From a virus: 57,663 nucleotides of DNA. Each line of letters starts with the position of its first letter. Position 1 is the first letter of the stretch. The stretch spans positions 1 to 57,663 of IMG/VR virus record IMGVR_UViG_3300034062_002204; one strand, 5' to 3'. The notes beneath the pieces were generated by a model. The model made no database searches. It had not been told where the DNA came from and saw nothing but the letters and a program-made list of their open reading frames with translations. Positions 374 through 49,977 of this stretch are shown here, piece after piece. A program made the position numbers and the translations under genes.

Positions 374-2091
374 TTATATTTGAAAAAATGAAATATAAAA
401 ATATTCTTTCAACCGGAAATAAATTTAATGAAATAATATTCAATGGTGTGAAAACAAATCTCTGCATCGGAAAAAATGGTGAAGGAAAATCAACTTTTCT
501 TGACGCATTAACTTTCGTTCTATACGGTAAACCTTTCAGAAAAATCAACAAACCACAACTAATTAATTCTACAAATAACTCAGATTTACTTGTTGAAATT
601 AACTTTAAAATCAATAAAGATTCATACCTAATACGTCGTGGTATGAAACCAAATATTTTCGAAATCTTTACAAATAACAAGTTAATAGATCAGAATGCAA
701 TCTCAAGAGATTATCAAGAATTACTGGAAAATCATATCTTGAAGATGAATTATAAAACATTCACTCAGATTGTCGTTATTGGAAACGCAACTTACATGCC
801 ATTTATGAAGTTGAATCCAGTAGATAGAAGAAATATCGTTGAAAATCTTTTGGATATTGATATCTTCTCTAAGATGAATTCTCTTCTTAAAACAAAAGTG
901 TCTAAGACAAAAGAAGAAATAAATGGAACTTCTTATAAACTAGATCTATCTAAAGAAAAGATGAAGATACATAAGAATCTAATTTCGAATTCAACATCAG
1001 ATATTGACAAATCAATCACAGATATCGATGCTGAAATGAGACGAAATGAATTGCAAGTAATTGCAAAAGAATTGGCTATAGATAAATTGAATAAAGAGAT
1101 TCAAGAGATCATTGTTAATGATTCAAAAATCAGTACCCTTACTTCTAAGATATCCAATCTTACACATTATTCTGTAACTTTTAAAGAAAAGATGAAGAAT
1201 CTGTCGAAAGAAATTAAATTCTTCAATACAAATGATTCTTGTCCAACTTGTACACAATCTATTCCAGAAGAATTTAAATCAACTACATTATCATCTAAAG
1301 AAAAAGAATTAACCAAATATAATGATGCCATATCGTCCTGTAATTCTGAGATTAATAGTATATCTATCGAGATAGAAGAAATTAACAAAAATATAGAAGA
1401 GATTAAAGAAAGAAAGACAGAAATAACAAAGAGACAATTTGAAATTGATTCTATTACACAATATATCGGTAAGTTATCAAAACAGATTAATGATTTAAGA
1501 GTTAAGAAGATTGAAGATGTAAAGAAGATCGAAGAAGAAAAGACAATCTTAGAACAGGAATTGGAAACTCTGAATGAAGAACGTGATACTCTTCTAAATC
1601 AACAACACCTACAATCCATTGCAGCAATTCTTTTGAAAGATGATGGAATCAAAACGAAAATTATTCGTCATTATCTTCCAGTAATGAATAAGATTATCAA
1701 CAAGTATCTACAATTAATGGACTTCTATGTCAACTTTTCACTTGATGAAAACTTCGATGAAGTCATCAAGAATAAATCAAAAGAGAATTTTACTTATCAT
1801 TCCTTCTCTGAAGGCGAGAAATTAAGAATCGATCTTGCTATCCTTTTTACTTGGAGAGAAATTTCAAAGATGAAGAATGCTGCAAATACTAATTTGTTGA
1901 TTCTTGATGAAATTCTTGATTCATCATTGGATGCTCTGGGTATTGATGATTTCTTGAAAATCTTATCTTCTAGTAAAGAACAAACTAATACCTTTGTTAT
2001 TTCGCATAGAAGTGATGGAATTCAAGATAAATTTGAGAGAATCTATAGATTCTCTAAGGTAAATGGTTTCACTAAGATATCTATAGATTAA
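370..2091 (+). CDS. 46: gp46-like SbcC/Rad50-type recombination ATPase subunit
   Basis: 573 residues, close to T4 gp46 (560). Walker A GKNGEGKST lies at residues 34-42. Long coiled-coil arms flank a zinc-hook CPTC at about residues 291-294. The ABC signature SFSEGEK, Walker B LLILDEILD and an H-loop ISHRS follow near the C-terminus. With gp47 it resects DNA ends and feeds UvsX-driven recombination and late replication. Its ATG overlaps the stop of gp47 (ATGA), suggesting translational coupling. The 3' end overlaps the convergent ClpA-like gene by 4 nt. Confidence 0.96.
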   Translation: MIIFEKMKYKNILSTGNKFNEIIFNGVKTNLCIGKNGEGKSTFLDALTFVLYGKPFRKINKPQLINSTNNSDLLVEINFKINKDSYLIRRGMKPNIFEIFTNNKLIDQNAISRDYQELLENHILKMNYKTFTQIVVIGNATYMPFMKLNPVDRRNIVENLLDIDIFSKMNSLLKTKVSKTKEEINGTSYKLDLSKEKMKIHKNLISNSTSDIDKSITDIDAEMRRNELQVIAKELAIDKLNKEIQEIIVNDSKISTLTSKISNLTHYSVTFKEKMKNLSKEIKFFNTNDSCPTCTQSIPEEFKSTTLSSKEKELTKYNDAISSCNSEINSISIEIEEINKNIEEIKERKTEITKRQFEIDSITQYIGKLSKQINDLRVKKIEDVKKIEEEKTILEQELETLNEERDTLLNQQHLQSIAAILLKDDGIKTKIIRHYLPVMNKIINKYLQLMDFYVNFSLDENFDEVIKNKSKENFTYHSFSEGEKLRIDLAILFTWREISKMKNAANTNLLILDEILDSSLDALGIDDFLKILSSSKEQTNTFVISHRSDGIQDKFERIYRFSKVNGFTKISID

Positions 2092-3110
2092 ATATTCATA
2101 GATATATTATATTTTTTCATTTTGTTGGTTTTGGTTTTTTCGAAGAGTAAATCTTCCTGATCTTCTACTATCTTTATAAGAACAACATCTCCGGATTGTA
2201 ATCGTTCGTCAGAAAGAACGCAAGATAACGGGATTTCAATTTTGCTAGAAATAACTCTCTTCAAATTTCTTGCACCATATTCTTCGGAAAAACCTTTTTC
2301 TATCAACCAGTCTTTTGTCTTATCTTCCATAACAAAAAAGATTTTCTTTAGATTCATCTTAGACGATAATATTCTATATTGGATATCAGATAACTGTAGT
2401 TCCAGAATCTTTTTCATATGTTCTGGTGTTAATGTTTCGAATTTAATTGTCACATCAATTCTATTCAAGAATTCTGGTCTAAATTTTGATCTCATCGATT
2501 TATCTAGTAGAGACAATTCTTCTTCTTCGTCGACCTCTTTGTTAACAAATCCTATCGTTTTAGATCTTTGCACATACTCCTCAACACCAATATTTGATGT
2601 GAATATAATGAAACAATTTCTGAAATTCACAGAATCATTATTTCCCAATCTAATTTCTCCCTTATCTAATATAGAAAGAAGTAGATTAAATAGAGAATCT
2701 GTAGCTTTCTCAATCTCATCGAATAGAATGACATTCGGAACAACTCCTTCTACATCTTTTTTGTTGAAGAATGCTTTGGTTTCCGAGTGTCCTATATAAC
2801 CAGGAGGAGCTCCAATTAATTTGGCAAGCTCATGAGATTGTTGATACTCACCACAATTTACTTTAAGAAACCTATCAACACCAAAAAACTTAGCCAATTC
2901 TTCTGCTACTTTCGTTTTCCCGCAACCAGTTTTACCAGCAAAGAAGAAAGAAGATATAGGTCGAGTTGGATCAGATAAACCATTATAGAACTTTTGTGTA
3001 GATATCGCCAATTCTCTTATGGCTTTTTCTTGACCAACAACAACATTATTCAATTTATCTTCTAATTCTTTTGCTGGTCCAGACAGATTTCTAGAGTTTA
3101 AGATCATCAT
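2088..3110 (-). CDS. clpA: ClpA/ClpB-type AAA+ unfoldase (single D2-like module)
   Basis: 340 residues, only the second (D2) ATPase module of a ClpA-like protein: VVVGQEKAI near the N-terminus, Walker A AGKTGCGKTK, pore loop GAPPGYIG, Walker B VILFDEIEKA, sensor/arginine-finger segment FRPEFLNRID, then a D2-small domain. No N-domain or D1 is present. Between the ATPase core elements is SKTIGFVNK, which aligns with the IGL loop by which bacterial ClpA docks on ClpP, so it may drive host ClpP. An AGGAGG lies 3 nt before the first ATG and 6 nt before the second (3107), so the second may be the true start. The partner protease is not in this window. Confidence 0.9.
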   Translation of the reverse strand: MMILNSRNLSGPAKELEDKLNNVVVGQEKAIRELAISTQKFYNGLSDPTRPISSFFFAGKTGCGKTKVAEELAKFFGVDRFLKVNCGEYQQSHELAKLIGAPPGYIGHSETKAFFNKKDVEGVVPNVILFDEIEKATDSLFNLLLSILDKGEIRLGNNDSVNFRNCFIIFTSNIGVEEYVQRSKTIGFVNKEVDEEEELSLLDKSMRSKFRPEFLNRIDVTIKFETLTPEHMKKILELQLSDIQYRILSSKMNLKKIFFVMEDKTKDWLIEKGFSEEYGARNLKRVISSKIEIPLSCVLSDERLQSGDVVLIKIVEDQEDLLFEKTKTNKMKKYNISMNI

Positions 3111-3147
3111 GATCCTCCTGAAACTATTTATTGGTATATGTGAAAAT

Positions 3148-3173
3148 GCCGCCTTCTGTTTCCAGGTGGCGGC
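3148..3173 (-). terminator. GC hairpin at the 3' side of the tmRNA gene
   Basis: On the minus strand GCCGCC and GGCGGC pair around a loop, followed by ATTTTC. It sits after the tmRNA tag stop and before the ClpA-like gene, so it may end the tmRNA precursor. It could instead be part of the tmRNA fold. Confidence 0.5.
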
Positions 3174-3465
3174 GAACCCAGTCTTATGCTGTTTAAGCAG
3201 CAGCAGACATTACTAATACGTTAGTATTTGCGTTTATAGTTTACGCTGTTATGGTAGTCGTCTACCAGAAATCTACTCTCATCTATTCCTGCCAATCGAT
3301 ACTGATTCAGGCCCACCAAAGTATACTCTTTGTCAATATCCCCGCAGATATCATACGTTTGGTGTAGGACTCAACTTCATAGGTCGAGCGAGTATACTTT
3401 GGTGGACCTGCTGGGTTCCGCCCCCAGGTCTTGCACAGTTGTTGAATCGGATCAACGATTTCAAT
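3174..3465 (-). ncRNA. ssrA: Circularly permuted (two-piece type) tmRNA
   Basis: Read on the minus strand, a T-arm (CTGGG, 7-nt loop, CCCAG; 3427-3411) is followed by acceptor strand CAGGTCC and an encoded ACCA ending at 3400. After an intervening segment comes GGGCCTG at 3314-3308, which pairs with CAGGTCC (7 bp, one G-U), then a D-like region resembling other tmRNA 5' ends. A hairpin GGTAG/CTACC looks like pseudoknot 1. The tag frame starts at GCA 3231 and reads ANTNVLVMSAAA with TAA at 3195-3193, the stop lying in a TGCTG/CAGCA hairpin as in P5. The 3' half precedes the 5' half, so the gene is permuted; a 20-bp stem (3309-3328 with 3390-3409) closes the excised segment. GATTTC/GAAATC (3268-3273, 3457-3462) may be part of P2. 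The T-loop GGCGGAA is atypical. Outer ends are approximate. Confidence 0.87.
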
Positions 3466-3516
3466 TTTTATTTATTAGTCTTCCTCTCACCAATCCAAAA
3501 GATTCAGTCTCAAATA

Positions 3517-3786
3517 TCAAATAATTATTTGTGCCATCATTATACCAATGTCTTGTGTTTCCCAAACCATCTCTTCTGCCGTTTCACTGAAAATGCCCAT
3601 AGTCTTTTCTAATTCCTCAATAGCAATATTCTTATTTGTAATTCTATTTTTGGTAGAAAACGAATCTATAACAAGACCCGTTGTTAAATGTATTAACCTG
3701 ACACCAGCTGGATTCTCATTCAATTTTTGATCTGGTGTCAGGAAATATTCAAATGTACACTGTGTGTTAATCGTGTGAATATTCAT
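3517..3786 (-). CDS. Release-factor-like small protein lacking GGQ
   Basis: About 89 residues from the ATG at 3786 (ATG 3792 also possible). The core GVRLIHLTTGLVIDSF followed by NRITNKNIAIEEL matches the segment of class I release factors that follows the GGQ loop (V-R-x-x-H-x-x-T-G-(I/L)-V ... K-x-x-A-x-x-x-L). Where GGQ would be expected the protein reads TPDQ, so peptidyl-tRNA hydrolysis by the usual mechanism is unlikely. The start overlaps the end of the upstream gene by 20 nt. It lies just upstream of the tmRNA gene on the same strand. Family similarity is by eye; function is unknown. Confidence 0.6.
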   Translation of the reverse strand: MNIHTINTQCTFEYFLTPDQKLNENPAGVRLIHLTTGLVIDSFSTKNRITNKNIAIEELEKTMGIFSETAEEMVWETQDIGIMMAQIII

Positions 3787-4231
3787 CCACATCAATTTGA
3801 CCATTACGATATACATTAATCTCTGCATGATCACCAAACATTTGACGAAGATCTTCATCTTCAAACATAGATAGAAGTTCGTCTACTTCATTATATGCCT
3901 TCTTTATTGAATCGATCGAATCGAAAGAAAGATCTTCAAGATCAATCTCTTTACTATATTGTTCGTTATTCAAAGTCCAGTTATCAACATGATCACAAGA
4001 GTTATTGAATCTATAATAATCTCGATTAACACCAAATACACAAGTGTCACCATCATTGAAATAAGGTGTATATTGATTCCAAGAAAATGAATTCAATTGT
4101 GGATTGTCATTGAAGATATCTTTTGTGATATCACCAAATACACTCTTTGCGTTATCTCGTAACATCTTCATATGTTCGTCACGAATTACCTTAAATTCAT
4201 TAATCTTTGCAATAAATTCATTCTTAGTCAT
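3767..4231 (-). CDS. Hypothetical protein, 154 residues
   Basis: The ATG at 4231 is preceded by GAGG; the stop of the upstream gene is 1 nt before it, so the two are probably coupled. The product is acidic and polar with no membrane segment or motif I recognise. Phe/Tyr/Asn-rich central part, Asp/Glu-rich C-terminal half. No function assigned. Confidence 0.8.
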   Translation of the reverse strand: MTKNEFIAKINEFKVIRDEHMKMLRDNAKSVFGDITKDIFNDNPQLNSFSWNQYTPYFNDGDTCVFGVNRDYYRFNNSCDHVDNWTLNNEQYSKEIDLEDLSFDSIDSIKKAYNEVDELLSMFEDEDLRQMFGDHAEINVYRNGQIDVDEYSHD

Positions 4232-6380: not shown

Positions 6381-6510
6381 ACTATATTCTCTTTATTTTC
6401 AATAACTTACGGTAAATCGTTGATTCTAAACGAGATATTCTTCCGAAGAATATTCTCTTTGTTTTCAATGACTTGTTGCAAGTCATTCATTTTAAACGGA
6501 ATATAATTTA
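6381..6510. repeat. Two copies of the recurrent palindromic promoter-upstream element
   Basis: Two copies lie back to back between the divergent promoters. Each has arms related to GAGATATTC/GAGAATATTC and a central TGACTTG-loop-CAAGTCA type hairpin. Related copies occur at 29237, 43892, 49421 and 49979, always just upstream of a promoter. No gene in the 219-bp gap. Confidence 0.7.
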
Positions 6511-6519
6511 CAAAAAACT

Positions 6520-6547
6520 TTGATTCGGATCTCCAATAAGGTATAAT
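6520..6547 (+). promoter_or_regulatory. Leaderless-type promoter, rightward
   Basis: TTGATT, 16-nt spacer, TATAAT, 6 nt to the ATG at 6554. Confidence 0.8.
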
Positions 6548-6553
6548 GGTTAT

Positions 6554-6943
6554 ATGAAGAAGAGAGAAACCGCTAAAGAAAAACGTGAACGATTGGCTCT
6601 TGAAGAGCAAATTCGAAATGATAATGAATGGCTTGAATTGAAGAATCAGTATCCAACCATCCTTTTGGATTTCGTGTTCGTCTTCTCGAAGCTTCCTAAT
6701 TACGAAGTAAACAAGCACGAAGCAGTATATTCCTTCACTGATCTTGTATATGATTCTCCATTCTTTCTTCCGATTGTCTTACCCAATGATTATGATTTTG
6801 ATGTGATCTTCGAAATCCAAAGAATGAATGATTATCTCGAAGAAATTCGCCTGAAAGAAGAGTACGAGAAAGAGAAGAATCGAAAGATCTATGCTGCTCT
6901 TGCTAAGTTAACCAAAGAAGAAAAAGAACTGTTGGGTCTGTAG
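6554..6943 (+). CDS. Hypothetical protein, 129 residues
   Basis: Highly charged N-terminal helix (MKKRETAKEKRERLALEE) and charged C-terminal helix around a hydrophobic middle with Phe/Leu/Pro. The ATG is 6 nt after the -10 box, so the message is likely leaderless. No domain recognised. Confidence 0.75.
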   Translation: MKKRETAKEKRERLALEEQIRNDNEWLELKNQYPTILLDFVFVFSKLPNYEVNKHEAVYSFTDLVYDSPFFLPIVLPNDYDFDVIFEIQRMNDYLEEIRLKEEYEKEKNRKIYAALAKLTKEEKELLGL

Positions 6944-6969
6944 AATCGACATCGTCTTCGGAGAAAGAA

Positions 6970-7047
6970 ATGAAACAAACAATCAATATTAAATATCGTG
7001 TTGATTTAATCGAATCTGAACGTGGCTGGGCCAAACATTATTTTTGA
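6970..7047 (+). pseudogene. Truncated N-terminal remnant of a small phage gene
   Basis: ATG at 6970 after a GGAGAAAGAA ribosome site opens a 25-codon frame (MKQTINIKYRVDLIESERGW) that stops at 7045-7047. The start resembles small phage proteins of the 'YKVDLVESERGWG' sort, which are longer, so this looks like the 5' end of a gene joined by deletion to the next one. Confidence 0.4.
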
Positions 7048-7063
7048 CCAAATACTTCGAAAT

Positions 7064-7471
7064 ATGATCTGGGAATCGATCTTTCTCAAATATTGTGATT
7101 ATGCAAAAACCAAATTGAATGTATCGGATATTACTATATTTGTAAATGAAGAACAAGAATCATTATTTGAGAAGATCGATTTCTTCGTTGATGGGTGTGT
7201 ATTTATTGAAGATGATTGGACAATAATAGATTTATACACCGAATCATATGATCGTTACGATTTACTATTATGTGTGTTGATTCACGAAATTGGTCATGTT
7301 ATCTGTTGGAATAAATATGGTTACGATCATACTGAAGAAGATGCTTGGGATAATGGTGGATCTATCTTAGAACAAAACGAAATTCCGGAATGTTTTGATC
7401 TGGTGAAAGTTGAGGCTTTGAGTAGTTATGCTAGAATTGCAAAAATTTCTGAACACGAATTTTGGCGATAG
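7064..7471 (+). CDS. HEIGH-type zinc metallopeptidase-like protein
   Basis: About 135 residues from the ATG at 7064 (a GTG at 7022 is also open). Contains LIHEIGHVI, a zincin HExxH motif, followed by TEEDAWDNG, the same layout as the paralogue at 23094-23489 (LIHEIGHVI then TEKDAWICG). Third zinc ligand not certain. No secretion signal, so probably cytosolic or virion-associated. Substrate unknown. Its 3' end overlaps the RNA ligase gene by 44 nt. Confidence 0.75.
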   Translation: MIWESIFLKYCDYAKTKLNVSDITIFVNEEQESLFEKIDFFVDGCVFIEDDWTIIDLYTESYDRYDLLLCVLIHEIGHVICWNKYGYDHTEEDAWDNGGSILEQNEIPECFDLVKVEALSSYARIAKISEHEFWR

Positions 7472-12213: not shown

Positions 12214-12381
12214 TTAATTTCCAGACCTAGACCAAGACCTAGACCTAGACCTAGACCAAGACTCAGACCTAGACTCAGACCTAGACCAAGACCCAGACCT
12301 AGACCTAGACCTAGACCAAGACCAAGACCAAGACCCAGACCTAGACCAAATAATTCTTTTGTAAATTGATTTCTTTATCAT
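12214..12381 (-). CDS. (Ser-X)n dipeptide-repeat protein (second of cluster)
   Basis: 55 residues: MIKKSIYKRIIW then about 20 Ser-X pairs, X being Arg, Gly, Trp or Glu. Encoded by hexamers TCT(A/G/T)GG, with TCTGAG for Glu. It is a tandem copy of the gene at 12386-12592 with the same 12-residue head. Its ATG is 5 nt after the stop of that gene and no promoter lies in between. Confidence 0.6.
   Translation of the reverse strand: MIKKSIYKRIIWSRSGSWSWSWSRSRSRSGSWSRSESRSESWSRSRSRSWSRSGN
12222..12348. repeat. Hexanucleotide array 1
   Basis: About 21 copies of GACC(T/A/C)A or GACTCA on the plus strand (TNGGTC on the minus). Inside the second Ser-X gene. Followed by a 40-bp flank that is repeated after array 2. 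Confidence 0.9.
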
Positions 12382-12385
12382 ATTT

Positions 12386-12592
12386 TTAGTTAGACCTAGA
12401 CCCAGACCTAGACCTAGACCAAGACTCAGACCTAGACCCAGACCAAGACCAAGACCCAGACCCAGACCAAGACCTAGACCTAGACCCAGACCAAGACCCA
12501 GACCCAGACCCAGACCCAGACCAAGACCAAGACCCAGACTCAGACCTAGACCTAGACCCAATATTTTTTTTGTAAATTGATTTCTTTATCAT
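12386..12592 (-). CDS. (Ser-X)n dipeptide-repeat protein with its own promoter
   Basis: 68 residues: basic head MIKKSIYKKNIG, then Ser at every other position for about 56 residues with Arg, Gly, Trp or Glu between. The ATG at 12592 lies 6 nt after a TATAAT with a TTGACT 17 nt further upstream, the same leaderless promoter class used by other genes here; this is the main reason to take it as a real gene. One variable base in TCTNGG switches Arg/Gly/Trp. No known family; the product could bind nucleic acid (Arg/Ser) or membranes (Trp). Confidence 0.65.
   Translation of the reverse strand: MIKKSIYKKNIGSRSRSESGSWSWSGSGSGSGSWSGSRSRSWSGSGSWSWSGSRSESWSRSRSGSRSN
12391..12561. repeat. Hexanucleotide array 2
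   Basis: About 28 copies of the same hexamer family as array 1, with the same 3' flank (TTGTAAATTGATTTCTTTAT) after it. The two array-plus-flank blocks form a tandem duplication. Confidence 0.9.
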
Positions 12593-12598
12593 ATTACA

Positions 12599-14056: not shown

Positions 14057-16570
14057 TTAGTCGAAAAACGAATCAAGAGTTGATTTGTTTTCTAATGACC
14101 AAGAAATTGCATCTAAAATAGTAGAAATAGGTTCTATAAAAGTCTTTTGAAATTGTAAATTGTAATCTATAAATTCATGTAATTTAAGTTCCGGAGGAAG
14201 AATTGAATTGAAAGAAATTATATTCTCTCGAATCATATTCGGTTCTTTAAGATACAAGAATTTAATCTTTTCTCCTTCGTGGATCTCAGTATACTTCTTT
14301 AGAAGATCATTCTTTTTCAAGAGATTGTTGTAAACAAGTGAACCTCTTACATGTATTGGAGTTCCTTTTGTATAGATAGAAATATTAGATGAATATGTTT
14401 TTAGATTATTAACACCTCTGGGAAATGCAATATCTTCTGGAGAAAGCGAAAGAAATTCTTTTTTTACATTATCAATATATTCACGCAAATCAGACTCATT
14501 CGATTTCATGATAATTTTAATTGCTTCTTTAATTTTACCACGACAAAATTTTGGAGTTGAAGATTTAACAGCTTCAATACCCATGATTTTCATTTTTGGT
14601 TCTGAATATCTTACTCCTTCTGAATCATAAACATTTAACATATATCTTTTCTTTGCCGTCCAAATACCACGATCGGCGATCGATTCTCTCTTCATAATCA
14701 TTTTCTGTGAGTATGAATTTAGATAATCAGCTAGATCTTCATAAGAATCATTAATTATTTTCTGAAGTTGTTCTTTGCATATTTTATCTAGAAGATCAAC
14801 TGTCTGTTCGTTAGTCTTATTGGGAAAGAATTTGTTTACTAGATCTTGAAGATCTAAATATGCCGAGTCCGTATCTATTGCGATAACATAATCTTTATTC
14901 GTTTTTAATATATTTCTTAGATATCCATTCAATCTATTAGAAACCCAACGAATAGCCAATTGGCCAGATACAGTAATTGATTCTGCAATTCTCTTATCTG
15001 AGAATCTAAAATATCTATTGGCAATTGCACCATAAGCTGAATTCAATGCAATCTTCTTAGCCATCTGCAGATTCTTATACTTTGAGATATCATTCAGAAT
15101 TTGCTTAGTATCTTCACCAGTCTTATTTGCGGATTCTAAATCTTTTTCCGCTTGAATCATTTTTGACTTATAAATCTTACGTTGTTCGAACATCCAGGAC
15201 ATGAGCTGTGTCAAAAATCCATCCTTATCTCTACGATACAATTGTCCTGTCGCAGACATTGAGAAATTATTTTTCTTTAAATCTGATAGATCTATCTCCT
15301 TAGATAACAATTTATCTACAGAAATACCAGGAATAATCTTATCTATAATTGTGTCCGGAGAAAAATTCCCGCCCATAATAAGATGAGGGTACAGCGATTG
15401 TAAATCGAAAGAAACTACCCAATTATAGAATCCAGGTCTGGGTTCTTTTACATAAGCTCCTTCAATTTCTTCTTTAATTGATTCTTGTCTTTCAGGAATA
15501 ACATAACCTCTTGAAAGTAGATGATTGTAAATAATAACATCCCACATTCTAATTTGAGAGAATACGTCATCGAAATTGACTTTTGCGTCATAAGCCATAG
15601 TCATAGCCAACTCGATTAATTTCATCTTATTTTCAAGAGAAACAACTAAATCCACATCTTTCGCATTGTATTCGAGAAATTTATTATAATCTTCTTTATA
15701 AAGAAGGTGAAGAGAACCATACTCAGAATAATCTAATTTATTTTCACCAAGTTCAACAGAAGCAATATAATCTAATTTATAAGATTCCTGAGCAGAGTAA
15801 GTGAATTTCTTATAGAGATCTAGATAATCAAGAACAGAGATACCGAACATATCATATGTCTGGACTTTCTTACCCATAATTTCAATAGTCTCTTCACGTA
15901 AGATTTTCCATGGCGAAAGATTCTTTGCCTTGGCTTCACCAAATACACGTGTAATTCTATTGATTAGATAGGGAATATCGAAGAATTTAACGTGCCATCC
16001 CGAAACAACATCAGGATAATTCGATTTCCAAACCTTCAAGAATTTCTCTAGTAATATCTCTTCAGATTCACAAGGAAGATATATCGCATCGGTCAAATTT
16101 CCTGTGAAATGATCAAATCCCAATACAATCTTTTTCTCTAGATTAGAAAATTTAATTGTAATGGCATTAATTTCTTCAATGGCATTTGAAATAGAAGGAA
16201 ATCCATTCTCACAAGTACATTCGATATCTATATATGCAACCACAATATCTTCGGTTTTCCATTGTATATCACTGTTAGTGTTTTGTGATATCCATTGATA
16301 TTGTGGTTGTATATTACCATATACTGAGAAATTACCAACATCCTTATTGCGTGCGATAAATTCTCTTGTTTCTTTTACATTCCCAGCATCAAATTCAATA
16401 ACAGGATATTCATCTAAGTTCTTAAATTCCGATACTGTATTTGGTGAAGAGGCAGGAATCCAGATTCTAGGATGAAAATCATTTATCCTATCTTGTTCTC
16501 GCTTCCTGTCCTCAACATAACGAACATATAAAGTATTTCCCCAAGATTGAACATTAGTATAATATTTCAT
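14057..16570 (-). CDS. 43: gp43-like family B DNA polymerase
   Basis: 837 residues (T4 898). 3'-5' exonuclease: Exo I AYIDIECTCENG, Exo II GWHVKFFDIPYL, Exo III region YNAKDVDLVVSL. Polymerase: motif A SFDLQSLYPHLI, motif B KKIALNSAYGAIANR, motif C IAIDTDSAYL. The C-terminus ends with an aliphatic/aromatic clamp-binding-like tail (LDSFFD). Replicates the genome with gp45, gp44/62, gp41 and gp32. TATAAT ends 7 nt before the ATG, so the transcript may be nearly leaderless. regA is not adjacent here, unlike T4. Confidence 0.98.
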   Translation of the reverse strand: MKYYTNVQSWGNTLYVRYVEDRKREQDRINDFHPRIWIPASSPNTVSEFKNLDEYPVIEFDAGNVKETREFIARNKDVGNFSVYGNIQPQYQWISQNTNSDIQWKTEDIVVAYIDIECTCENGFPSISNAIEEINAITIKFSNLEKKIVLGFDHFTGNLTDAIYLPCESEEILLEKFLKVWKSNYPDVVSGWHVKFFDIPYLINRITRVFGEAKAKNLSPWKILREETIEIMGKKVQTYDMFGISVLDYLDLYKKFTYSAQESYKLDYIASVELGENKLDYSEYGSLHLLYKEDYNKFLEYNAKDVDLVVSLENKMKLIELAMTMAYDAKVNFDDVFSQIRMWDVIIYNHLLSRGYVIPERQESIKEEIEGAYVKEPRPGFYNWVVSFDLQSLYPHLIMGGNFSPDTIIDKIIPGISVDKLLSKEIDLSDLKKNNFSMSATGQLYRRDKDGFLTQLMSWMFEQRKIYKSKMIQAEKDLESANKTGEDTKQILNDISKYKNLQMAKKIALNSAYGAIANRYFRFSDKRIAESITVSGQLAIRWVSNRLNGYLRNILKTNKDYVIAIDTDSAYLDLQDLVNKFFPNKTNEQTVDLLDKICKEQLQKIINDSYEDLADYLNSYSQKMIMKRESIADRGIWTAKKRYMLNVYDSEGVRYSEPKMKIMGIEAVKSSTPKFCRGKIKEAIKIIMKSNESDLREYIDNVKKEFLSLSPEDIAFPRGVNNLKTYSSNISIYTKGTPIHVRGSLVYNNLLKKNDLLKKYTEIHEGEKIKFLYLKEPNMIRENIISFNSILPPELKLHEFIDYNLQFQKTFIEPISTILDAISWSLENKSTLDSFFD

Positions 16571-17924: not shown

Positions 17925-20900
17925 TTAAAAATTTAGTCTTAGACTTAACTGTAGTTGTCTTGAAGTTCCTAGACCAACAGTTTTATCAAGTGTTGATTGT
18001 ATCGTTCCAAATACAGCTCCCTTTGTTACATCATTGTAAGATTGACCGGGTTGTAGTGTATTAGACTGACCAATTCTGGATGGAATTGCATTTGGTAATT
18101 GTGCTGGAGGATTTGTAAAATTTACATTATTAAAGATGTTATATAATTCTGTTCTGAAAATTAAATTGTATTTGTCTTTAGCATAAATCTTTTTCTGAAG
18201 AGTTAGATCTGCTTGGAAAAGCATTGGACCTCTCAACGAGTATCTAGAAGCGTTTCCAAAATATCCAGGCAACGGAACTGAGAAAGCAGCAGGATTCAAG
18301 AAAATTGTTTTATCAGTATTTTTGATATATGACGAAACTCCTAATACATAATCAGGTCTGCGGATTTGTCTTGTTTGTCCACCACCAGGAACATTAATAA
18401 CAGCTACAGAATTAGACCCTACAGAACTATTATAGTACAATCCAGATGATTTGTCAAGAAAGATTATGTCGTTTCTTACGATTAATGGATCAAGAGGAAG
18501 ACCTGATCTGGTATTGATAACAGAACCAATCTGCCACGTTTTCCATTCATACAATCCAACAATATTTAAATTGTGACGAATATCCGCTGCATTATTACCA
18601 TAATCGGTTCTCCAATTGAAAGGATTTGCAACAGTTACAGTTTCATTTGAACCACCAGATGAACCGATTGATCTTCCCCATGTATATGATACACCATAAA
18701 TTAGGCCGCTCTTCGTTTTTCTGTTTAGAGTTGCCTGTAAAGCATTATAATGATCATTACCACCTGATGTTTTTACATCAACTTCAGCAAATCTATCACC
18801 AAATTGTCTCTTTACAGTTCCAGTAGGAGTTACATCTGTGATTAGATTTCCAAGTGTTCTAATGAACAAATTTCTACCAAGAGAACCAACATACGCAACA
18901 GTTAAAACATTATCTTTAATTTGTTGTTGAACTGATGCTGTATATGAATAAACAGTTTCCGGAATATTATAACCCGAAGAATAAGCTCTTGGTTGAAAAC
19001 GAAGATTTGGGTCATTGATATTGTAAGAAGCAATAATAGAAGTTGGATTAATCGGATAAGTTGTATTAGTTAGAGTCTTACTAACACGATCAGATTCAAA
19101 TGGTTGGATAAGATCTTCTGGTTGTCCTGGTCCAAAATAAACACCAGTTCCTACACGAAATACAGTCTTACCATTTAGAGAATTTGGACTCCATGTTCCA
19201 GATAATCTTGGCGAAAAATTATCTTTATTTGAACGATAGACAGGAAGATTATTTGGTAAAATGTTTCCTGTTTCTGGTGACCAATTAACTAATAGATTTC
19301 TCTTTTCCTTGAAAACTGAATAGAATTCATATCTAATTCCATAATTAACAGTAAAGTTAGAAGATGCTTTCCATTCATCTTGTATATAACCAATTAAATA
19401 ATTCTGAGTAATTTCTCTTTCTCCAGTTGCTCTATTATTAAATGGAGAAGGTGCAGAAAGATCACCCAAGAATTGTATTTGAAGTGGTCGATTATTAATT
19501 AGATCTTCTACGTTTGAGAAACTATAAGTTGTTCCACCAAGACGATCTGTAAATAAACGGATAAATCTTAATTCTCCACCAAACTTAAAATTATGAGAAG
19601 AATTAATCCATGAAAAATTATCAATCAAAGTAATTGAAGTATTAGTATAAGGTTGTCCACGACCATTTGTAGCAGAATTTGATCTTACTAGACCACCAGC
19701 AGTAGCAAATCCTGTGCTTGAACCTTGTGTTGTAATACCAGATAAAGCAACGCCACCAGTTAGATTAATTGAAATATCTGCTGGATTAAAGTTATTTACA
19801 ATTGGTGCAGTTCCCCATGCTCTTGTTTTATAAGCATTTAATCCAATCTTGGTTTCATTAATCTTCTGTGGTGTGATAATCCATTGAACATTTGCTACAG
19901 CATTTTGTGGAACCGCAGTAACATCAATAGAATTTCCAGTAACACCTAGTGGTTGAATTGACTTACCACTATCTCTGAAGTAACGGAAATATCCAGAAAG
20001 ATTATCTGAAATTTTTGAATCTAATCTTAGACCAAACGAATTTTCATCTACAGTCTGTTTTCTATCAATAGCAACAATAGAAGCATTCGGATCTGTTGTT
20101 GGAATATTTCCAACTGGATAAAGTGCTAGAAGATTTCTAACTTGTGGAACTGCTCTTGCTTTTGCTGTTTCTGATGGAACAGCTTCTCTAAACGGAACCG
20201 ATTGTCTCTGTCTTAGACCTTCATATGATGCAAACCAAAAAGTCTTATCTTGCTTTACTGGACCACCAACAGAGCCACCAAATTGATTTAGACGTAAAGG
20301 ATTCTTAGCAGCATCAAAGAAATTTCTAGAATCTAATACATTATTTCTAAGATATTCAAAAACACCACCATGAATCTTATTACCACCAGACTTAGTTACA
20401 ATTGTGATTTGACCACCAGTTCCTGTACCATATTCTGCTGGATAATTATTAGATTCAACACGAAATTCTTGAACATTTTCCATTGAAGATTGTAATCTAA
20501 AGAATGAAGAAATCTGCCCATTTAGATTACCCGGAGAAGCATCAATAATAGAAGATCCTTCAATTCCATCATATTTAATAGCATTTTGTTGATTAGATCT
20601 ACCACTAAACTTAATATTATCAAATGTACCACCGCCAGCAGTTGAAGCACCAGGAGCTAATAGATATAACTGTGAAATTTGTCTACCATTTAGCGGAAGA
20701 TTTGAAACTTCTCTTTCAGAAACATTAACACCAATCTTCGCTGAAGATGTATCGATAGTCGTAACTTCACCACCTTCAACAATAATTTCAGTCTTAATAA
20801 TTTGAGGTACTAAGATGAAATTGATACCAATAGATTCATTAACCAATAATTTAATTCCTGTTTTCTGTGTATTTGCAAAACCGGGAGCAGAAGCTTTTAC

Positions 20901-21110
20901 ATTATAAGATGAAGCAGGTAGATTTGTGATAATGTATTCACCAACTTCATTTGTTACCACTTCTCTTACAGATCCAGTTTTTTCATTCTGAATCTTAACA
21001 GTTGCACCAATAATTACTTCTTCATTCTTGTCAAAAATCTTTCCTCTAATCGAAGCTTCTTGACAAAATAAGCTAGTCGTTAATAAAAATAAACTTAATA
21101 AATATTTCAT
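17925..21110 (-). CDS. Oar-like TonB-dependent outer-membrane protein
   Basis: 1061 residues. Signal peptide at residues 1-17 (MKYLLSLFLLTTSLFC), carboxypeptidase-regulatory-like domain at about 20-105 (GATVKIQNEKTG, GEYIITNLPA), TonB plug at about 115-240 (REVSNLPLNGRQISQLYLL, YDGIEG, FRVESNNYPAEYGTG), then a large beta-barrel ending in Leu-Arg-Leu-Asn-Phe as outer-membrane barrels do. Segments such as LRNNVLDSRNFFD and NQFGGSVGGPVKQDKTFWFASYEGLR are typical of the Oar-like proteins abundant in Acidobacteriota. The frame is intact and base composition matches neighbouring phage genes, so it is long resident. It could alter the host surface, block superinfection or import a nutrient. Confidence 0.93.
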   Translation of the reverse strand: MKYLLSLFLLTTSLFCQEASIRGKIFDKNEEVIIGATVKIQNEKTGSVREVVTNEVGEYIITNLPASSYNVKASAPGFANTQKTGIKLLVNESIGINFILVPQIIKTEIIVEGGEVTTIDTSSAKIGVNVSEREVSNLPLNGRQISQLYLLAPGASTAGGGTFDNIKFSGRSNQQNAIKYDGIEGSSIIDASPGNLNGQISSFFRLQSSMENVQEFRVESNNYPAEYGTGTGGQITIVTKSGGNKIHGGVFEYLRNNVLDSRNFFDAAKNPLRLNQFGGSVGGPVKQDKTFWFASYEGLRQRQSVPFREAVPSETAKARAVPQVRNLLALYPVGNIPTTDPNASIVAIDRKQTVDENSFGLRLDSKISDNLSGYFRYFRDSGKSIQPLGVTGNSIDVTAVPQNAVANVQWIITPQKINETKIGLNAYKTRAWGTAPIVNNFNPADISINLTGGVALSGITTQGSSTGFATAGGLVRSNSATNGRGQPYTNTSITLIDNFSWINSSHNFKFGGELRFIRLFTDRLGGTTYSFSNVEDLINNRPLQIQFLGDLSAPSPFNNRATGEREITQNYLIGYIQDEWKASSNFTVNYGIRYEFYSVFKEKRNLLVNWSPETGNILPNNLPVYRSNKDNFSPRLSGTWSPNSLNGKTVFRVGTGVYFGPGQPEDLIQPFESDRVSKTLTNTTYPINPTSIIASYNINDPNLRFQPRAYSSGYNIPETVYSYTASVQQQIKDNVLTVAYVGSLGRNLFIRTLGNLITDVTPTGTVKRQFGDRFAEVDVKTSGGNDHYNALQATLNRKTKSGLIYGVSYTWGRSIGSSGGSNETVTVANPFNWRTDYGNNAADIRHNLNIVGLYEWKTWQIGSVINTRSGLPLDPLIVRNDIIFLDKSSGLYYNSSVGSNSVAVINVPGGGQTRQIRRPDYVLGVSSYIKNTDKTIFLNPAAFSVPLPGYFGNASRYSLRGPMLFQADLTLQKKIYAKDKYNLIFRTELYNIFNNVNFTNPPAQLPNAIPSRIGQSNTLQPGQSYNDVTKGAVFGTIQSTLDKTVGLGTSRQLQLSLRLNF

Positions 21111-28944: not shown

Positions 28945-29193
28945 TTAAACTTGAGTTAGAAATAATGAGTCCTCATTATCTTTAATGAATTTCAGGACAT
29001 CAAATAAAGTGTTCAAAATTTTATGATCATACGAATATTTCGAAGGGGACTTGGGATCAACATAACGGTGTTCAAAGGAACAATTGTTAGCATCGTACGA
29101 TCCAATATACTCGTCGGTCTTGATGTCATAAAAATCCAACCAAGAACCAGTCAACGAAGGACCGATTTTAATTTTAGAAGTAGCGACGATCAT
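28945..29193 (-). CDS. Hypothetical protein, 82 residues
   Basis: Leaderless start 6 nt after TATAAT. WLDFYDIKTDEYIGSYD and a C-terminal helix; small alpha/beta protein. First gene of a four-gene minus-strand run down to 28545. Confidence 0.7.
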   Translation of the reverse strand: MIVATSKIKIGPSLTGSWLDFYDIKTDEYIGSYDANNCSFEHRYVDPKSPSKYSYDHKILNTLFDVLKFIKDNEDSLFLTQV

Positions 29194-29199
29194 ACAACC

Positions 29200-29228
29200 A
29201 TTATACCTGATCCAAAACCGAGGAGCAA
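29200..29228 (-). promoter_or_regulatory. Leaderless-type promoter
   Basis: TTGCTC, 17-nt spacer, TATAAT, 6 nt to ATG 29193; preceded by AAAAAAACT and the palindromic element. Confidence 0.8.
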
Positions 29229-29236
29229 GTTTTTTT

Positions 29237-29303
29237 GAAAGAATATCTCATTTAAAATCAATGACTTGCTGCAAGTGATTGAAAACAAATAGAATATTCT
29301 TTC
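29237..29303. repeat. Recurrent palindromic promoter-upstream element
   Basis: GAAAGAATATCTC ... GAATATTCTTTC arms around TGACTTG-ctg-CAAGTGA. The last codons of the Nudix gene lie in it. Confidence 0.75.
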
Positions 29304-29698
29304 ACACAATCTTCAAGACCACACGCAAATGTTTTGGCCATCGGGATCATCCAATATAAATTAGTTAACAAAGGCAATTCTTCCATATCATCTATATGAA
29401 TCACAACAATCTGTTCTTCAGTCATAGTGTCGGTCGCATAAGGATCGCCAATAACATAAAAGAAATGAACAACAAAATCATCTCCATTCAAAGTTATAAA
29501 TTTTTTCCAGTTCTCAACATCTAATCCAGCTTCTTCATTAAACTCACGACGCATCGCTTGTTCTGGTGATTCATTCTCTTCGATCTTGCCACCAATACCA
29601 TTAATCTTTCCTCTTTGCCAATCAGGCTTTTCTTTACGGATTAGAGCAATTTGATCTAAAGATTCATTAAATAGAAATCCTACTACATACTCAATCAT
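29258..29698 (-). CDS. Nudix hydrolase
   Basis: 146 residues with a full Nudix box GGKIEENESPEQAMRREFNEEAGL (G-x5-E-x7-REF-x-EE-x-G-L). N-terminus YVVGFLFNESLDQIALIRK is the usual first strand. Could clean oxidised nucleotides or remove ADP-ribose/NADH-type compounds; substrate not deducible. SD GGAGGA before the ATG. Confidence 0.92.
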   Translation of the reverse strand: MIEYVVGFLFNESLDQIALIRKEKPDWQRGKINGIGGKIEENESPEQAMRREFNEEAGLDVENWKKFITLNGDDFVVHFFYVIGDPYATDTMTEEQIVVIHIDDMEELPLLTNLYWMIPMAKTFACGLEDCVKEYSICFQSLAASH

Positions 29699-34648: not shown

Positions 34649-35882
34649 AATACGAGCTTTTCTTGATTACATTTTCTGCCTCAGGCCAAGGCCTTTTTAA
34701 TACGTCAAACGCATACAAAGCAGCATAATCTGCTTTTTGTAATATATATTTTTCTGCCTGTTCAAATCTACCTTTCAATATTTCTGTGGCATAATCATAC
34801 GCCAATTCAGGATCTTGTGCAATTGCGTCTTCTCCTTTCGGAAAACGACCTTTTAATACATATCTTGAATATCTATATGCAAGTAGAGAATCTTTTGCGA
34901 TTCCATCTTCACCTTTTGGAAATGGACCATTCAATGAATATCTTGCATAATTGTAAGACGTTTCAGGATCTTTTGCAATAGACTCTTCGCCTTTTGGAAA
35001 CGGTCCGTTCAAGATGTATCTTGAATACTCGTACGCTATTACTGGATCTTTTGCAATAGACTCTTCGCCTTTTGGAAACGGTCCGTTCAAGATGTATTTT
35101 GAATACTCGTACGCTATTACTGGATCTGTTGCTAATATGTCTTCTCCAAATTTCGGTACTTTTCTTGTTTGTTTGTATTTGTTTACAACAAACTGCCACA
35201 CAGAATCTATATTATTTTTATCGACATCTATATATTGTTTGTTTTCAAATCGTCTCACAACTTTTGCTACAGTTGAATCAAGTATAACACCTTGTGTTGG
35301 TTCGTTGACGTGAATGATACCGTCGCCTGCATTATCAATAACAACTTTCACACCCAAAGTGTTTCTCAATACACTTGTCCATCTTCTTGGATTATCGTCT
35401 GCTGCAAAAAATGATAGAAACCACCATATACCGCCGGATGTCTGAACTCTTGCATCGTCTTTTGCGTCTCTCAAAATACTTTTGTAATTGTCTTTAAACA
35501 GAATCTTTGCGGCGGCTTCTACGACATCATTTGTAACATTATCCAAAAATACAATATGTTCTTCTTTAGTATCTATTCTTATGATGTTGATAAATGGAGC
35601 TTCGTGTTGAAAAGGAAGTGTTACAGTATTCAAGTAATACTTTGCCGGATAAAAATACACACCAATTGGTGTGTTGTAGTATTCAGATCTTGGATTGATT
35701 CCAACCTTAGGGATCTTGGTCATTGTTACACCATAAAGATCAAGATCTACTCCTTGATCTTCTAAGTTGTGTAAATAAGTTCTGGCTGCAGAATGTCCAA
35801 ACTCTGCAGCCTTATTTACAGCCAGTCCAACTTTTTGTGCTCGTCTTAGTTCGTTGATGAAAGATTTGAAGTGTTTTTGCAT
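34593..35882 (-). CDS. Large protein with 26-residue tandem repeats; candidate packaged protein
   Basis: 429 residues. N-terminus MQKHFKSFINELRRAQ has the shared capsid-targeting-like form. Residues about 50-215 are a domain with TPIGVYFYPAKYYLN seen in other large-phage hypothetical proteins. From about residue 245 come seven or more copies of a 26-residue helical repeat (GPFPKGEESIAKDPVIAYEY and variants). Two DNA copies are almost identical (34966-35043, 35044-35121). Function unknown. Confidence 0.8.
   Translation of the reverse strand: MQKHFKSFINELRRAQKVGLAVNKAAEFGHSAARTYLHNLEDQGVDLDLYGVTMTKIPKVGINPRSEYYNTPIGVYFYPAKYYLNTVTLPFQHEAPFINIIRIDTKEEHIVFLDNVTNDVVEAAAKILFKDNYKSILRDAKDDARVQTSGGIWWFLSFFAADDNPRRWTSVLRNTLGVKVVIDNAGDGIIHVNEPTQGVILDSTVAKVVRRFENKQYIDVDKNNIDSVWQFVVNKYKQTRKVPKFGEDILATDPVIAYEYSKYILNGPFPKGEESIAKDPVIAYEYSRYILNGPFPKGEESIAKDPETSYNYARYSLNGPFPKGEDGIAKDSLLAYRYSRYVLKGRFPKGEDAIAQDPELAYDYATEILKGRFEQAEKYILQKADYAALYAFDVLKRPWPEAENVIKKSSYYAKEYEKFKQKFNQQAEN
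34966..35121. repeat. Near-identical 78-bp tandem repeat inside the 429-residue gene
   Basis: Two adjacent 78-bp units differ at only one or two bases, while other units of the same protein have diverged, so this duplication is recent. Confidence 0.85.
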
Positions 35883-43708: not shown

Positions 43709-43889
43709 TTATATTTTCTTATTAGAAAAAGATTTAACTTATGTTAAATCTTATGCAGAACAGAATGGTTTGAAGACGAGGATTGTCAATAGAGATAATG
43801 TCCCGGTGTTATTGACATGCGAATATGACGGATCAAGGTTGAATCTGACTGTTATAGATGGAATCGTAAAGGAAATTGGTATTGGATAA
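43701..43889 (+). CDS. Small I78-inhibitor-like protein
   Basis: 62 residues from the ATG at 43701 (GAGG upstream), overlapping the previous gene by 8 nt. GLKTRIVNRDNVPVLLTCEY then DGSRLNLTVIDGIVKEI resembles the I78 peptidase-inhibitor fold (R-V-V ... D-x-R-x-x-R-L-N-V-x-V-D-x-x-G-x-V). Function as an inhibitor is not shown. Confidence 0.55.
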   Translation: MNNYIFLLEKDLTYVKSYAEQNGLKTRIVNRDNVPVLLTCEYDGSRLNLTVIDGIVKEIGIG

Positions 43890-43891
43890 AC

Positions 43892-43958
43892 GAAAGAATA
43901 TCTCCTTTGTTTTCAATAACTTGTGGCAAGTCATTGATTCAAAAGAGAATATTCTTTC
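43892..43958. repeat. Recurrent palindromic promoter-upstream element
   Basis: GAAAGAATATCTC ... GAGAATATTCTTTC arms around TGACTTG-type hairpin (ACTTG-tgg-CAAGT). Confidence 0.8.
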
Positions 43959-43966
43959 GAAAAAAT

Positions 43967-43995
43967 TTGCTTCGGTTGAATGGATAAGGTATACT
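43967..43995 (+). promoter_or_regulatory. Leaderless-type promoter
   Basis: TTGCTT, 17-nt spacer, TATACT, 6 nt to ATG 44002. Confidence 0.8.
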
Positions 43996-44001
43996 TAAAG
44001 T

Positions 44002-49405: not shown

Positions 49406-49420
49406 ATTTTTTGCATTTAA

Positions 49421-49485
49421 ACTATATTCTCTTTAGAATCAATGACTTGCGCCAAGTGATTGACAACAAAGAGAATATTCTTTCG
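49421..49485. repeat. Recurrent palindromic promoter-upstream element
   Basis: Arms TATTCTCTTT ... GAGAATATTCTTTC with inner TGACTTG-cgc-CAAGTGA. Confidence 0.8.
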
Positions 49486-49493
49486 AAAAAACT

Positions 49494-49521
49494 TTGTCCT
49501 GTGATCCGTTCGAGGTATAAT
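49494..49521 (+). promoter_or_regulatory. Leaderless-type promoter
   Basis: TTGTCC, 16-nt spacer, TATAAT, 6 nt to ATG 49528. Confidence 0.8.
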
Positions 49522-49527
49522 GGTTCT

Positions 49528-49977
49528 ATGGAATTTGAACAACTGAAATCTATCTTTCCTGACGCAACGCTCGAGACCTGGCATCAGCATCCGAACGGAG
49601 GAGGCTGGGTCGAGAATACAGCGACAGTAGAGGAGACAGCGTTCGTTGGACCGAACGCTGTCGTCTCTGGGTTCGCTTCGGTCTCTGGGGACGCTCGGGT
49701 CTCTGGGAACGCTCGGGTCTTTGGGGACGCTTGGGTCTTTGGGAACGCTCGAGTCTCTGAGACCGCTTCGGTCTCTGGGAAAGCTTTGGTCTCTGGGGAC
49801 GCTTCGGTCTTTGGGGACGCTTGGGTCTCTGGGACCGCTTGGGTCTCTGGGACCGCTTCGGTCTCTGGGTTCGCTTCGGTCTCTGAGGAAGCTTGGGTCT
49901 CTGGGGAAGCTTCGGTCTCTGGGAACGCTTCGGTCTCTGGGAACGCTTCGGTCTCTGGATCTACAGTCTTGAAATAA
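49528..49977 (+). CDS. Hexapeptide-repeat (left-handed beta-helix type) protein
   Basis: 149 residues. After MEFEQLKSIFPDATLETWHQ come about 17 hexapeptides V-S-G-x-A-x (x: D, N, T, F, E, K; last: S, W, R, L), the pattern of left-handed beta-helix proteins. Encoded by 18-bp repeats with two to three variable bases. More GC-rich than its surroundings. No catalytic domain, so a structural or binding role is likely; possibly a fibre- or surface-like element. Confidence 0.8.
   Translation: MEFEQLKSIFPDATLETWHQHPNGGGWVENTATVEETAFVGPNAVVSGFASVSGDARVSGNARVFGDAWVFGNARVSETASVSGKALVSGDASVFGDAWVSGTAWVSGTASVSGFASVSEEAWVSGEASVSGNASVSGNASVSGSTVLK
49660..49970. repeat. 18-bp tandem repeat array
   Basis: About 17 units of GTCTCTGGG-NNN-GCT-NNG. 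Base changes fall almost only on the two exposed codon positions. Confidence 0.85.

Follow-up and report, generated by a model that had tools for sequence, protein, structure and literature searches.

A permuted two-piece tmRNA gene beside a putative ClpA/ClpC-type unfoldase gene in a T4-like phage

The genome of a T4-like phage encodes an RNA that its sequence identifies as a permuted, two-piece tmRNA, followed directly by a gene for a putative ClpA/ClpC D2-type unfoldase; the same virus also carries a clpP gene of its own. We tentatively favour a model, to which we give a little less than even probability, in which the tmRNA is functional and would rescue ribosomes late in infection together with host SmpB, its tag feeding the neighbouring unfoldase and the phage ClpP. 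The stretch of DNA analyzed here (the window) comprises a virus record of 57,663 bases, whose T4-like genes include gp43, gp32, UvsX, the clamp loader, and a DnaB-type helicase. Its DNA polymerase (gp43) is about 50% identical to those of Synechococcus phages, and the phage presumably came from fresh water, judging by the IMG samples of its relatives.

Two Rfam covariance models match the minus strand of the window (Table 1), each far above its gathering score: RF04321 (99.9 bits, E = 2.6e-18; gathering score 47 bits) and RF01849, alpha_tmRNA (92.9 bits, E = 5.1e-24; gathering score 50). An earlier note, made from the letters of the DNA, had proposed a phage-encoded permuted tmRNA at positions 3174–3465 and had suggested checks with covariance models and ARAGORN. 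The tmRNA is indeed located there, and the Rfam matches together with the T4-like genes of the window agree with a phage-encoded permuted tmRNA; the gene is longer than was proposed (3145–3524 by RF01849) and lies on the minus strand, where the note had given no strand. ARAGORN reported no tmRNA in the window, which we regard as a false negative. A blastn comparison of the tmRNA region with phage records gave chance hits only. None of 100 shuffled versions of the region was as stable as the real sequence by minimum free energy.

Read on the minus strand, the acceptor half (T-arm, CAGGTCC, and ACCA) is encoded before the coding half, which begins with GGGCCTG; this is the permuted order that had been described. 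The acceptor strands CAGGTCC/GGGCCTG pair at all seven positions, as the note had also claimed, with one of the seven being a G3.U70 wobble. This is the alanine identity pair, present as T.G at acceptor pair 3 in the window and in two relatives (G003 and G005). The T-stem is CTGGG/CCCAG. An intervening segment of 85 nt lies between ACCA and GGGCCTG and is closed by a precursor stem (3390–3410 with 3308–3328), which had been recognized at a length of 20 bp and in fact comprises 21 bp, 20 of them Watson-Crick pairs and one a G.U pair. The T-loop region GGGGGCGGAACCC, which had been considered unusual and non-consensus, is a single base away from the RF01849 consensus GGGGGCGGUACCC and is thus ordinary for an alpha-type tmRNA. 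The tag frame (3193–3231; GCA AAT ACT AAC GTA TTA GTA ATG TCT GCT GCT GCT TAA) encodes ANTNVLVMSAAA* and its stop codon sits inside a hairpin, in agreement with the earlier reading. With alphaproteobacterial tmRNA (RF01849; merged RF04321) the window RNA shares the order of the halves, the T-arm GGGGGCGG(U/A)ACCC, the acceptor, and ACCA, as well as the processing stem, resume region, tag, and 3′ ACCUGGNAACAGAA end. The end of the tag differs, being MSAAA in the window and ALAA in the alphaproteobacterial tag.

Table 1. Coordinates of the tmRNA, of its parts and neighbours, and of a dispersed element in the window
Feature	Position	Strand	Basis or remark
Permuted tmRNA (ssrA) core	3193..3462	-	RF04321 match; RF01849 spans 3145-3524; fold z -7.4
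Acceptor piece: P2 5′ strand, T-arm 3411-3427, CAGGTCC 3404-3410, ACCA 3400-3403	3400..3462	-	Sequence, Rfam alignment
Intervening segment, presumably removed in maturation; closed by 21-bp stem	3315..3399	-	Sequence, MFE fold
Coding piece: GGGCCTG 3308-3314, tag frame, stop-codon hairpin, alpha-consensus-like 3′ end	3145..3314	-	Rfam
Tag reading frame ANTNVLVMSAAA + TAA	3193..3231	-	Sequence
ATAAATA, late-promoter-like, just upstream of tmRNA	3469..3475	-	Motif; kept in relatives
ATAAATA, late-promoter-like, 15 nt upstream of unfoldase ATG	3125..3131	-	Motif; kept in relatives
Lone ClpA/ClpC D2-type AAA+ ATPase, 340 aa, IGF 186-188	2088..3110	-	Pfam, PDB match, relatives
Dispersed hairpin element copies	6440-6565, 29185-29310, 43885-44000, 49418-49490		In the window

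Homologs of the window unfoldase were identified in seven other viral contigs (73–100% identity), and every one of these (L002–L008) has a permuted tmRNA close to that gene. The contigs represent three lineages: the window's own virus (G002 and G001, the latter 89,224 bases long and matching the window at 99.98% identity across 54.5 kb), G003/G004/G007, and G005/G006. A profile search for more unfoldase relatives returned the same seven contigs and none further, and scans with the tmRNA sequence revealed no new lineages. Across the three lineages, few as they are, the acceptor and T stems are maintained via compensatory changes; the acceptor pairs read CAGGTCC/GGGCCTG, CACCTCC/GGGGGTG, and CTCATCC/GGGTGAG, with G3.U70 in each. 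The stop-codon hairpin (identified by eye) is formed by GTCT..AGAC in one lineage and re-formed by GAGTG..CACTC in another. Loss of the pairings in relatives, which the earlier note had held to speak against a tmRNA, is therefore not seen. The tmRNA of some relatives scores best to the betaproteobacterial Rfam model, indicating that the RNA has diverged between lineages.

The adjacency of tmRNA and unfoldase gene was noticed after the fact; the gap between them is about 35–65 bp in two lineages, and in the third (G005/G006) one extra gene separates them. This insert lies between direct repeats of 28 nt (86%) that correspond to the tmRNA 3′ end (L006:2594–2621 and 3908–3935), which points to a later insertion, so that direct adjacency is probably the ancestral state. 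The contig of the nearest outgroup, G038, seems to stop short of the tmRNA region and is uninformative there. The inserted gene encodes a protein of 370 aa that is glycosyltransferase-like by eye and has no Pfam match.

The tags of the three lineages (ANTNVLVMSAAA, VNTNVMAMSAAA, and GNAKAMSMSA) have Met-Ser-Ala in common. Two lineages encode the serine with TCT and the third with AGT; retention of the peptide despite this switch suggests that selection acts on the tag itself. The end of the window tag had been singled out as unusual, and comparison with other viruses upholds this: among 53 distinct permuted tags reported by ARAGORN in the viral loci fetched (a count that leaves out the window and G003 tags, both of which ARAGORN misses), 42 have LAA at their end and a single one, which belongs to this group, has AAA. 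The G003 tag ends in MSA, not MSAAA, so the MSAAA degron is not strictly conserved among what are only three independent tags.

The unfoldase gene is located directly downstream, with a gap of about 35 bp between its start and the end of the Rfam match to the tmRNA. Its product has AAA_2 and ClpB_D2-small domains (Pfam), Walker A and B motifs, and a GYIG pore loop, and its best PDB sequence match is to residues 500–792 of ClpC (the D2 ring; E = 1e-58). The AAA_2 and D2-small domains, the GYIG loop, and the position of the IGF motif are shared with the D2 ring of ClpA and ClpC. Unlike these proteins, the phage ATPase is a single domain of 340 aa without an N-domain or D1 ring, the match to ClpC beginning only at residue 500. 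The IGF motif, read directly in the sequence, occupies the position of the ClpP-loop of ClpC and is invariant in five sequences, whereas the flanking residues vary. An AlphaFold model of the protein was unusable (mean pLDDT 45).

ClpP (PF00574) is encoded in all three lineages (G001, G003, and G006); in G001 the gene lies outside the window, about 24 kb from the tmRNA. Columns for the Ser-His-Asp triad, common to PF00574, are present in each of these phage proteins. Compared with E. coli ClpP, the phage protein is about 25% identical and the hydrophobic residues of its docking pocket are only partly kept (Y60R, F82G, and L114T). The best PHROGs matches of the phage ClpP are head maturation protease families. 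The gp21 (S77) head protease is encoded by a separate gene in the same three contigs, so the phage ClpP, judged by gene content, is probably distinct from the head maturation protease. A Band-7/SPFH lipoprotein-like gene is found directly beside clpP in two lineages (G001 14077–14868, minus strand, L132:2245–3036; G003 6583–7374, minus strand); SPFH proteins regulate FtsH in bacteria. No SmpB gene was found in the nine contigs searched.

The motif ATAAATA is the core of T4-like late promoters. In each of the three lineages one copy precedes the tmRNA and another precedes the unfoldase gene. Of the 31 copies in the window, 15 are located at most 60 nt upstream of a gene on the same strand, which is the best result for 21 words composed of the same letters; for the 20 others the proportion is at most 22%. 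The overall frequency of the motif in the window is not over-represented. Its position upstream of the two genes suggests that tmRNA and unfoldase may be expressed late, unlike the early promoter proposed for the ssrA gene of Methylophilales phage Melnitz.

Two-piece tmRNAs have already been published for aquatic phages, with 53 suggested among approximately 18,000 phage genomes (PMC9004378), so the RNA alone is not new in kind. Huge phages are known to have tmRNA and SmpB (PMC7162821), and the Sinorhizobium jumbo phage AP-J-162 is reported to have a tmRNA and six Clp-like ORFs (PMC11242549). Melnitz and the Pelagibacter phage Mosig (PMC9004378) are also lytic, T4-like aquatic phages with a permuted ssrA; Melnitz ssrA is associated with an early promoter as well as a glutamine riboswitch, in contrast to the late-type motif and the adjoining Clp unfoldase of the window tmRNA. 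ClpP is not mentioned in PMC9004378, and a full-text literature search with partial coverage found no report of a phage tmRNA coupled with a phage Clp protease. The novelty of the locus is in its surroundings: the RNA adds to the published phage two-piece tmRNAs, and the pairing within a set of tmRNA, unfoldase, and ClpP with its own tag appears not to have been noted before.

The isolates with the nearest ClpP are Synechococcus phage BUCT-ZZ01 and, second-closest, the Sinorhizobium jumbo phage Phosso, and both have a permuted tmRNA. Phosso (PV764938) encodes a permuted tmRNA, a full-length ClpA-type ATPase, and ClpP, the same parts as found here; it differs in that the two-domain ClpA is located far from the tmRNA and in its host-like tag, ANDNVSTKVALAA (read from L158). 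Synechococcus phage BUCT-ZZ01 also has a CTA-anticodon tRNA reported by ARAGORN as 'tRNA-Pyl' (L157, 2875–2950), perhaps an amber suppressor.

A permuted tmRNA is also present in three (G040, G045, and G048) of 31 contigs fetched by their related DNA polymerase, in each case with a tag of the normal ALAA type. A search for ClpP in ten of the longer T4-like contigs matched exactly these three, about 1.2–1.5 kb from the tmRNA, and the seven others have neither gene (Fisher p = 0.008, for an association spotted after the fact among contigs that are fragments and, within a lineage, not independent). A ClpA/ClpX-type ATPase was looked for in the three contigs and not found. In another locus (L189), where the surrounding genes differ, tmRNA and ClpP are separated by about 1.4 kb, and a contig of 328 kb (G024) encodes tmRNA, ClpP, and a ClpA-type ATPase. 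Of 29 ClpP contigs of at least 20 kb, eight have a tmRNA, mostly far from ClpP; the density of tmRNAs is not significantly higher in the ClpP contigs than in the DNA-polymerase contigs (8 in ~1.39 Mb versus 3 in ~0.91 Mb; p = 0.54). A glutamine riboswitch (RF01739, 54.5 bits) is located near a ClpP gene on the viral contig L194 (3943–3994; compare the riboswitch of Melnitz ssrA).

Several other elements of the window genome were identified. The gene at 17925–21110 (minus strand) of this lytic phage encodes an outer-membrane beta-barrel protein of the Oar/TonB-receptor type, 1061 aa long, whose N-terminal domain is carboxypeptidase-regulatory-like; a role in superinfection or surface modification is possible. 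The protein has no PHROG match; its best full-length cellular matches are from Acidobacteriota (27–30%), and these matches point weakly to a host in that phylum. An element of approximately 100 nt with the hairpin CAATGACTTGC-N-CAAGTNATTG is dispersed through the window, where four or more copies occur, and G001 has additional ones. Tandem or duplicated segments are found at 12223–12595, 34764–35137, 42901–43008/44143–44250, and 49513–49958, some of which recur at other places in G001.

In the model that we favour, the rescue part (late transcription, cutting, charging, and use of host SmpB) draws on established tmRNA biology. The precursor would be transcribed late in infection from an ATAAATA-type promoter; host tRNA-processing enzymes would cut on either side of the 21-bp stem, and the acceptor and coding pieces would stay joined through base pairing. 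Once charged with alanine via its G3.U70 acceptor stem, the tmRNA would act with host SmpB to free stalled ribosomes, adding ANTNVLVMSAAA to unfinished proteins. We infer the step from tag to phage Clp proteins from the gene linkage, the divergence of the tag, and the IGF loop: the altered tag end may be tuned to the neighbouring ClpA-D2-type unfoldase, which would dock on the phage ClpP via its IGF loops, and the resulting complex would degrade tagged, truncated proteins, mostly late proteins of the phage. The linked unfoldase and the phage ClpP, which the earlier note had not recognized, make its suggestion that the RNA could redirect rescued proteins more plausible; its other suggestion, that the tag might mark phage translation, gains nothing from these findings. 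An exclusively phage-run tag-and-destroy route, in which a tag ending in ...MSAAA is poorly seen by host proteases and is read by a one-ring unfoldase feeding the phage ClpP, we consider unlikely.

Earlier suggestions for the role of tmRNA in lytic phages are ribosome rescue and the recycling of host proteins. The strongest rival to the favoured model, and one that we hold to be quite possible, is that the phage tmRNA serves ribosome rescue only; the tag would then be left alone or be degraded by host ClpXP, ClpAP, Lon, or FtsH, and the phage unfoldase and ClpP would have other tasks (such as host takeover or protein quality control). Such a role fits the host-like ...LAA tags of most phage permuted tmRNAs elsewhere, the many tmRNA contigs without an unfoldase gene, and the often wide spacing of tmRNA and ClpP. 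It does not readily account for a tmRNA-unfoldase neighbourhood maintained in three lineages, for an unusual tag end restricted to this phage group, or for the IGF loop and ClpP occurring in the same genomes.

Because the window tag lacks the leucine at position -3 that is present in most tags, it could also be that the phage tmRNA interferes with the host system: it would compete for SmpB, and the poor degron it adds would let tagged proteins evade the proteases of the host. A pure decoy would not be expected to have a conserved Met-Ser-Ala within a full tag, nor a linked protease-type unfoldase, and we regard interference as improbable. It is very improbable that the gene is a captured host ssrA that does nothing for the phage, whether as a passenger or as a relic of an attachment site: temperate elements often have ssrA fragments (PMC9004378), but here the two halves are intact, as are the tag frame and every stem, divergent relatives show compensatory changes and a serine codon switch that leaves the peptide the same, the RNA has its own promoter-like motif in three lineages, and a non-exhaustive scan of the genes found no integrase. 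Chance resemblance to a tmRNA, with which the silence of ARAGORN at the locus would agree, has negligible probability and is already refuted by the two covariance-model matches and by the same match in relatives.

The location of a tmRNA beside a gene for a putative ClpP-docking unfoldase, in a phage with its own ClpP, offers a possible answer to why lytic phages have tmRNA: the phage may decide what becomes of tagged proteins. If this is true, the tag and protease pair may not cross-react with that of the host, and it could provide a tool for controlled degradation.
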